The notes under the pieces were generated by a model that saw only the letters and a list, made by a program, of their open reading frames with translations, had not been told where the DNA came from and made no database searches. Shown here one piece after another: positions 50,577 through 53,500 of a stretch of 64,000 nt of DNA. The DNA is from Auricularia sp. M13 (Eukaryota > Basidiomycota > Agaricomycetes > Auriculariales > Auriculariaceae). Each line of letters starts with the position of its first letter. Within the stretch, counting starts at the first letter, position 1. The stretch covers positions 6,448,001 to 6,512,000 of the forward strand of contig CM073193.1 in NCBI GenBank assembly GCA_037042915.1, given 5' to 3'. Both the position numbers and the translations under genes were made by a program.

Positions 50577-53500
50577 TCACGGCGAAATGACGATCACCTC
50601 GTCGTCGACCAAGGAAGTGCTCTTCTTGGACGGTCGGTCATTAGCGACCTTCCATTCGTCAGCAGCGTCTGAAGACGACTCAAGAACACGAGTATCGATC
50701 CGTCGTAGCGAACCGAAGAAGTCACCGTCATCGTCGTCATCATCCACGGGCCCGGGCCTGGTGCGCCGCCGCTTGGTACTGGATTCTGCGCGCCGCGAGG
50801 CCGGTCCAGGGTCATCCTCATCCTCATCGATATCTTCAACGCCATCATCATCGTTCTCTGAAAGGACTGCACGTTTCCGTTTGCTACCGCTGGCAGTACG
50901 AGTAGAGGCCTTCGCTCGTGTCTTCTTTGGTGGACGCGCAAAATCGCATACCACTCGAATGCCCGAGCCGGCCTCTACGTCTTCCCGACTCCGACGCGAT
51001 AAGCGATACGCTTCAGGGCCGGGGGCAACATAGACGTTGATGGTATAGGCGTTGGCAGAGTAGTCCTCCTGAATGTAGCCGGAGACCAGCATGTGAATGA
51101 TGAGGGTTTCCGTGTCCTGAGAAGACTCAGACATCATACAGGTATCCAAACAGGGTACGCACGTCTTTGCTCAATGATATCTTCCCGCCGCAAACATCAT
51201 CAAGGTCTAAGTCCAGTTTATCCTGCTGTGATTTCTTGCCTTTCTTGCCCCCAGCCGCAAAGGCACCGCCACCCAGGCCACGAACAAGATCCGCAAGGAT
51301 GGCGATTGTAACGCGTCCTTTGTGCGTGCTGATGTGCGAAAGTACGCGCACGATGCGCCACGCGTCAAGAGTCACGTCTAGGTTGGGCGAGAATGTGTCA
51401 GGCGAGCGGCGGCAGTTGTCACAATGGCCGCATTTGGCACCCGCGTCCGTCGCAGCACCCCATGCAGACAGCGCCAGGGATGAGGAAACAGAGAAGTAGC
51501 TGTCTCGAGGGAAGGCGGGGTGAGCGACAAAAGGGCCGCAACCGACGATCATACGCACTCGGCAAAGAGGAGTTTGCGGCACCCTCGCAAATCTTGGGCG
51601 AACTTGAGCATGGAGTGCACTGCCGGCGATGAACAGGACCGTCAGCCTGCAGTGCGCATAGGACGGCCGAGCACCATAGGGGCCCCGCCTGAGGAAGCGG
51701 TGCCCAGCGAACGACGTTGGAGCTATGGCGCACTGACCCTTCTGCTGGCCCTCAGGCTCGTTGGCGACCAGAGCGCTGAGCCGCGTTGCATCCTGCCCTA
51801 TAGCCAGGACAATGCTCAGATGATCTGTTCGAACTCGCGGCAAGAAGACATGGGAGGGGCGGAAGTGAACATACCTCGATAAAACAGCACGCAGTCCGCG
51901 TCTTTGCCATCGCGCCCGGCACGCCCAGACTCCTGGTAGTAGCCCTCAAGGCTTTTCTACCCCTAGCAGTGAGCACCCATCGGACCAAGACCGAAGTACA
52001 CGCTACTCACAGACATCTAACCACAACGTCCGCATGTCAACCAGCATGCTGTCGATCCAACGCGAGGACTCACAGTATGGTGTAATACGAAGCGAACGTC
52101 GCCCTTGTCGATACCCAGCCCAAATGCTGCAACAGCATTGATACCAACCAGGACAAGCAATGGGCTCACGCACCAATAGTCGCACACACGACCTTCACCT
52201 GACCCTTGCGCCACCGGACGTGAAGGCGCTCTTTCTCCTCGTCGCCGATGTCTGCGTGGTATATCCCAGACCGTATACCCCGTTCCGACAAGCCTGTTGC
52301 CACGGCTTCCGTGTCCTTGAGGAAAAGTGGTTAGCAAGCAGACTTCAAACAAGCCACGAAGCACTACCTTCTTGCTTAGACAGTATACGATCCCGCTGTC
52401 CTCCGCGTGGGACGCCAGAATATAATCGGCCATTGTCTGAATTGCCGCTGCCGCGCCAGACGGCTTGGGCATCACGCAATAATGCAAGTTGGGGCGATAT
52501 AGTGGCGACGAGAAATACACGGTCCCCGTGGTGTTCGCGGCTGCGGGGACGTCAGCGGACAGTATGACGCGTCTAGCTGGACCATGTACCTGCCCCATCC
52601 GTGACAGGCGGCAGGCGAAGGATCTTCAGCACATCATCGAGGACTTGAGGCGGACAAGTTGCTGATAATGCCATTATGGGCACGCGAGGAAAGAGCTGAC
52701 GCAAGAGGGACAGTTTCTTGTAGTCAGGCCTTGGTTTCTCGTCAGACTTGGATTCCCAGGCTGCGTCTTGGCGGCTCACCTGAAGTCATGCCCCAGTTGC
52801 GAAACGCAGTGAGCCTCATCAATGACGAGTCGAGCTTGGGTTCATTTCAGCCATTGCACTTAGAGGATGACGCGTTGGGTACCTAGGCGCCCCTTGTTTG
52901 CAAGCTTCTCCAGCATCGATACGAACGTCTTGCTCTTCGCAATTTTTTCTGGCTGAAAAATGTCAGTCGTAGGAGAAGGGAGGACCTCGGTACGCACAGT
53001 CACGTAGCAGAGCTTGATCTCTTTCTCGCCGTTCTGCGCGGAAGGGTCGTATGTAATCAGGCGGTTCATAATGCTTCGTGTTTCCTCCTTGCGAGTTGCG
53101 CCCGTGAGCATAACCGCCTCGACTGAACATATGGTCAGGCAACTTGACAAATTCAATCAATATGCGCTTGCCTCCGGCCTCTCGAAGATGGAGGATTTGG
53201 TCCGTTATGAGGGAAATGAGCGGTGAGATGACCACCGTGCAGCCTGGCGAAAAGAGTGCGGGCAGTTGATAAGTCAAAGACTTGCCGCCGCCTGGAATAT
53301 TATGAGCATATCTGGCGAGACAACGCGGTGATGTTGAGTACCAGTTGGCATGATGCACACTATGTCGCGTCGGTCCATGTTGGCATTACACTGCGAGGGC
53401 ATGAATGCGTGGAGGCGCCAACGACCAATAACCACGCACGACGCTGAGGAAAATCAGTAATAAAGCACCTTACAAATCAAACGTGCGTACCCTTGCTGGC

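Follow-up and report, generated by a model that had tools for sequence, protein, structure and literature searches.

The window (the whole stretch of 64,000 nt from contig CM073193.1 of Auricularia sp. M13 that was analysed) carries on its minus strand the coding part of a RecQ helicase gene. The host genome comprises 52.1 Mb in 14 contigs, and its intron-rich genes with short introns fit a basidiomycete. The gene was modelled as follows, with coordinates counted from the first base of the window.

50577..54006, minus strand: coding part of a gene for a RECQ1-type RecQ DNA helicase, 18 exons, 17 introns and 829 aa, modelled from homology and splice sites.
53123..53171, minus strand: candidate GC-AG intron of 49 nt, GAG/GCAAGC...TTCAG, the fifth intron of this homology-based model.

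The model, built from splice sites and homology, reads through 829 codons with no internal stop. Against solved RecQ proteins, the best relatives of the product were chains named Q1 (E about 3e-117), the two top chains (1.2e-117) carrying the name 'ATP-dependent DNA helicase' only, and weaker matches were obtained to BLM (4e-97), RECQ5 (3e-73) and WRN (5e-57). In the Pfam scan, PF00270 (DEAD), PF00271 (Helicase_C) and PF16124 (RecQ_Zn_bind) all exceeded their cut-offs, and the helicase core and the RecQ zinc-binding domain are thus both present. For the RQC winged-helix region, the alignment to RECQ1 extends through residue 691-692 and the Pfam scan reported no RQC model. An earlier note on this DNA had proposed a RECQ1-type RecQ gene, and the ranking of solved relatives and the Pfam domains bear this out.

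The aromatic-rich loop SQWGHDFRPDY is conserved in RecQ helicases, and a change in it may affect the coupling of ATP hydrolysis to unwinding. In the present protein the loop (about 52800-52770, minus strand) departs from this sequence by one substitution, with Leu at the position where RECQ1 has Trp; the RecQ paralogue L012, encoded on contig C7 of the same genome, also has Trp there. The substitution lowers confidence in the RECQ1-type assignment a little, the assignment resting on the whole protein. Across the intron at 53171-53123 the product REAGVEAVML aligns to RECQ1 without a gap, and a GC-AG intron is probable at this position of the model.

Between the Q-motif and Walker A the following elements were placed.

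53491..53924, minus strand: exon 2, 434 nt, carries the Q-motif Gln and ends ...TTTAGACTATGCCAGCAAGG in phase 2.
53444..53490, minus strand: predicted intron A, GTACGC...CTGAT...CCTCAG, 47 nt, with the A of CTGAT 10 nt from the 3' end.
53440..53443, minus strand: predicted micro-exon CGTC, 4 nt, which completes a Gly codon with its third base and adds the full Val codon GTC.
53391..53439, minus strand: predicted intron B, GTGCGT...TTCAT...CTCGCAG, 49 nt, with TTCAT 11 nt from the 3' end.
53342..53390, minus strand: exon 4, 49 nt, runs into Walker A.

Exon 2 terminates at 53491 with ...CAGCAAGG and exon 4 begins at 53390 with TGTAATGCC. A direct join of 53491 to 53390 is out of frame and meets a stop after 167 codons, and was rejected. 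With CGTC included, the protein is gapless against RECQ1 (9i22) in the stretch from the Q-motif to Walker A, and the junction sequence expected from this model is CAAGG-CGTC-TGTAA. The earlier note had the coordinates and sequence of CGTC and of its 47- and 49-nt introns exactly, and was right that 53491 and 53390 cannot be joined in frame; its statement that CGTC keeps the spacing from Q-motif to Walker A without a gap agrees with the 9i22 alignment and with the 29-residue spacing described below. Its prediction of a real and constitutive 4-nt exon is supported in part: the exon came out as the best of the enumerated solutions, with the spacing kept. A rival consisting of a single GC-AG intron had been overlooked. 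As judged from the sequence, it is highly likely that the four bases CGTC (53443-53440), between two ordinary short introns, form a true coding exon in a fungal helicase gene of the RECQ1 type.

Splicing solutions for the gap around CGTC were enumerated with anchors fixed at 53510 and 53378, allowing GT or GC donors, AG acceptors, introns of at least 25 nt, and one or two introns. Between these anchors 34 solutions are in frame and free of stops (five with one intron, 29 with two), and only two of the 34 give FRLCQQG-x-CNAN, namely the 4-nt exon (x is Val) and a 96-nt GC-AG intron (x is Tyr). The same two alone keep the 29-residue spacing, which was counted from the aromatic residue of the Q-motif to the Ser of Walker A. 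Bit scores with the NCBIfam RecQ model TIGR00614 were 223.6 (Val), 221.2 (Tyr), 216.4 (1-nt exon), 212.2 (78-nt intron) and 210.8 (30-nt intron), and PF00270 gave the same order in the four versions scanned (Val 81.8, Tyr 80.6, 78-nt intron 78.1, 30-nt intron 77.8). With TIGR04121 and ResIII, general helicase models that match weakly, Val does not come out ahead (30-nt intron 21.0 versus Val 20.3, and 78-nt intron 24.2 versus Val 24.0, respectively).

In the GC-AG solution one intron of 96 nt (53486-53391, donor TAC/GCACGT) replaces both introns, Tyr is encoded and there is no micro-exon, with CAAGGGTAC-TGTAA as the expected junction sequence. This is the sole spacing-keeping solution among the five with one intron; it trails the Val version by just 2.4 bits (TIGR00614) and 1.2 bits (PF00270), its donor reaches 3.79 bits over the other seven positions, where intron A has 3.08 and intron B 1.75, and another GC-AG intron is modelled in the same gene (53171-53123). 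It is nevertheless an unlikely reading: GC-AG introns make up about 1.0% of fungal introns in the figures of PMC7072748 (Table 1), a near-complete canonical 47-nt intron with branch-like site, pyrimidine tract and acceptor is left unexplained inside it, and its Tyr finds no counterpart at this column in the relatives (below).

Further candidates were rejected. A 30-nt intron with donor GTAAGG adds 22 residues, loses 12.8 bits with TIGR00614 and is shorter than every other modelled intron (minimum 43 nt). A 1-nt exon (53443) loses 7.2 bits with TIGR00614, gives a spacing of 28 and has a donor, AGC/GTCGTG, that scores -5.4. A stwintron, described in the available literature text as a contiguous removed stretch whose outer splice site is split by an internal intron, was considered by hand: to keep the spacing, a block removed in one piece would need a length of 96 nt and a start within 53490-53486, and only 53486-53391 has G at both ends, with C and A as the next bases, so that an internal intron cannot start just inside.

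Relatives were taken from a scan of genome contigs that gave 43 prokaryotic RecQ or RecQ-like loci, with no fungal relatives among them and many being TGWGKS-type RecQ-like proteins and not RecQ proper; a scan of viral contigs yielded no relative. The motif search, in which the match nearest to 29 was used, read a spacing of 29 (28 loci) or 30 (15 loci) in all 43, including locus L070, whose motif is interrupted by an in-frame stop. A narrower motif matched 36 of the 43; the remaining seven were listed separately, and the 43-locus count takes all. At the Val column the motif search found Ala in 18 loci, Val in 12, Ser in five, and Ile and Cys in four each, with Tyr in none of the 43. Free alignment by tblastn spanned the stretch for 34 of these 43 loci, with a spacing of 29 in 26 and of 30 in seven; in L051 the alignment contains a 14-residue insertion (spacing 43), and the locus's own motif reads 29. 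The column residues by free alignment were Ala 13, Val 12, Ile 4, Cys 3, Ser 1 and Leu 1, again with no Tyr among the 34, and the single Leu probably stems from the misaligned L051. The paralogue L012 is uninterrupted at this position, with a spacing of 29 and Ala at the column, and on sequence grounds it is the strongest single comparison for the 4-nt exon. Val fits better than Tyr, because Tyr is found in none of the 43 relatives and the intronless paralogue has the spacing of 29 with Ala.

These spacings also bear on two readings that dispense with the micro-exon. One is a single 78-nt intron (53468-53391), which inserts six residues, YARLICK standing in place of V. Its donor, AAG/GTGCTT at 53468 inside intron A, is the strongest scored in the gap (9.0 bits; 9.04), and the product is in frame without a stop. 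It loses 11.4 bits with TIGR00614 and needs a spacing of 35, against 29 in L012; a motif spacing above 30 occurs in none of the 43 relatives, and a spacing of 35 in none of the 34 aligned freely (one being misaligned at 43). We regard it as very improbable. The other is a sequencing or assembly error, in which the gap would be one intron of 100 nt and the assembly would have lost one exon base near the junction. Judging from the frame, one added base would likewise restore reading, at a resulting spacing of 28 that is found in none of the 43 relatives by motif and in none of the 34 by free alignment; such an error would further require the splice-like sites in the gap to be due to chance, and the remainder of the model, 829 codons in all, reads open. 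An error of this kind is hardly credible.

Splice sites were scored with weight matrices made from the 15 other introns of this one gene, and leave-one-out ranges were used for comparison (donors -4.2 to 8.4, acceptors -1.0 to 6.4). Intron A scored 7.2 (donor) and 6.6 (acceptor) and intron B 5.5 and 3.5, all within these ranges except the acceptor of intron A, which lies just above. Introns A and B, at 47 and 49 nt, compare with 43-59 nt for 13 of the 15 others. Branch-site-like YTNAY motifs lie 10 nt (intron A) and 11 nt (intron B) before the intron ends, and such a motif is present in 11 of the 15 other introns. The donor of intron B, GTGCGT, is also used by four of the 14 other GT introns; the A+T content of this intron is 39% versus 44% in coding sequence, and its branch-like site is TTCAT only. 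The 4-nt exon is thus flanked by complete acceptor and donor signals, canonical AG and GT, and introns of normal length. When splice sites were learned from the whole window without homology, the procedure drifted to GC introns that were false: these made up 75 of the 109 introns selected, and none of the gene's 17 introns was recovered. That version was discarded.

For a chance estimate, the 100-nt gap was dinucleotide-shuffled 20,000 times with its terminal hexamers kept, and exons of 1-19 nt between introns of at least 40 nt were sought. A frame-restoring exon of 1-19 nt appeared in 2,727 shuffles (13.6%), which makes frame rescue by itself weak evidence; 52 shuffles had such an exon with splice scores at least as high as observed. 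A 4-nt exon with any scores occurred in 748 of the 20,000, one whose summed acceptor and donor scores equalled or exceeded the observed sum in 13 (0.07%), and one with scores at least as high as observed and Val, Ala, Ile, Cys, Ser or Thr as the residue in two.

The gene has, very probably, a second micro-exon of 6 nt, to judge from its sequence. This exon is absent from the list given in the earlier note.

52017..52073, minus strand: predicted 57-nt intron, GTGAGT...GGTTAG, before the second micro-exon.
52011..52016, minus strand: predicted in-frame micro-exon ATGTCT, 6 nt (Met-Ser), immediately ahead of helicase motif VI.
51957..52010, minus strand: predicted 54-nt intron, GTGAGT...GGGTAG, after the second micro-exon.

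Its product is identical to RECQ1 at MS, within a highly conserved stretch, and the paralogue L012 reads HQTMPKSLEG, uninterrupted, at this position. With introns of at least 40 nt, 15 in-frame solutions were obtained for the region, and three keep the spacing: the 6-nt exon (HHTMSK) and two versions with a 2-nt exon after donor TGA/GTCCTC (HHTVNK and HHTVIK). Among these three, MS is given by the 6-nt exon only. Skipping of the 6-nt exon keeps the frame and loses two residues (Met-Ser); because skipping stays in frame, this exon could be optional, unlike the 4-nt exon.

With CGTC as an exon, introns A (47 nt) and B (49 nt) would each be recognised by their own ends and removed separately, probably one after the other, since four bases could hardly hold two splicing complexes together. 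Its inclusion would supply the wobble base of the Gly codon and one Val, and so keep both the frame and the conserved length from Q-motif to Walker A. As skipping leads to the stop after 167 codons, the 4-nt exon has to be present in any mRNA for the full helicase, and the fidelity of the double splicing event may set the amount of full-length helicase mRNA. That cells splice CGTC as modelled, and in which order the introns leave, we infer from the observed sequence, frames, spacing and splice scores. It is quite improbable that the two micro-exons tie RECQ1 output to splicing fidelity, such that skipping of the 4-nt exon would lead to a stop and nonsense-mediated decay and skipping of the 6-nt exon would lose Met-Ser in frame; on this reading, a change in splicing conditions could shut off the repair helicase through the first exon and tune it through the second.

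Exons of this size had been called rare in the earlier note, a claim to be qualified in view of 2,398 plant cases of 1-15 nt documented by RNA-seq (available text of PMC8831610) and of fungal micro-exons down to 1 nt (available text of PMC12940212 and PMC1184071). The plant exons resemble the present one in being tiny, in about half not being a multiple of three and in being widely misannotated; they differ in coming from plants, in resting on RNA-seq and in being conserved across species. In the Fusarium P450 CYP621A, according to the same text of PMC12940212, a 1-nt exon was inferred from mismatched phases, from a conserved motif and from a relative without introns, and has RNA-read support. 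Like CGTC it is needed for the frame, lies in a conserved motif, is flanked by canonical introns and has an intronless relative; unlike CGTC it is a 1-nt exon of an ascomycete P450 gene, backed by SRA RNA reads and 20 orthologous genes (24 in the discussion of that paper), whereas the RecQ exon has 4 nt and is predicted from genomic sequence.

Micro-exons down to 6 bp are described in P450 genes of Phanerochaete chrysosporium (available text of PMC1184071), and an 8-nt exon in Phanerochaete CYP5141A1 is cited in PMC12940212. The P. chrysosporium genes are likewise fungal, with introns of 45-55 bp and coding micro-exons, but belong to the P450 family and have micro-exons encoding 2-10 aa; the 4-nt RecQ exon is shorter than these and not a multiple of three. 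The Trichoderma virens Xlr2 micro-exon, in the portion of PMC11121469 available, is similarly fungal and functional, and differs in that glucose-dependent alternative splicing switches isoforms there. In the available text of PMC4014442, PMC3990503 and PMC8022950, micro-exons are named only as a mapping option. No report joining RecQ with a micro-exon in fungi was found in the literature text available, and a literature search on micro-exons in Agaricomycetes gave no match.

Exons of such small size have precedents in plants, animals and fungi, and the RecQ case is a good example and not something new in kind; the 4-nt exon is probably real and ordinary in kind. Knowledge of splicing is left unchanged, since 1-nt exons already have RNA support. 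What the locus offers is a clear test case for gene finders, as a conserved, open helicase gene that is read correctly only if exons as short as 4 and 6 nt are permitted. It would extend fungal micro-exons from the published P450 and transcription-factor genes to a helicase of DNA repair, and would place two of them in a single gene. It also illustrates how support for a micro-exon can come, in place of RNA, from a paralogue of the same genome that is uninterrupted at that position.

Elsewhere in the window, a 697-aa open frame on the plus strand (54778-56868), opposite to the strand of the RecQ gene, matches the Tnp2 transposase (PF02992, E 9e-10); its start lies some 770 bases upstream of the RecQ start codon. 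On the minus strand lie genes for phosphoglucose isomerase (12651-11299, PF00342) and a Dcp1-like decapping protein (16137-14227, PF06058). A further frame on this strand (36241-33584) matches part of the La domain, with a score under the Pfam cut-off. Among the other RecQ-like loci, L018 (contig C12) and L019 (contig C2) of genome G000 are closely similar RecQ-like helicase frames on separate contigs, and are perhaps members of a dispersed or mobile family.
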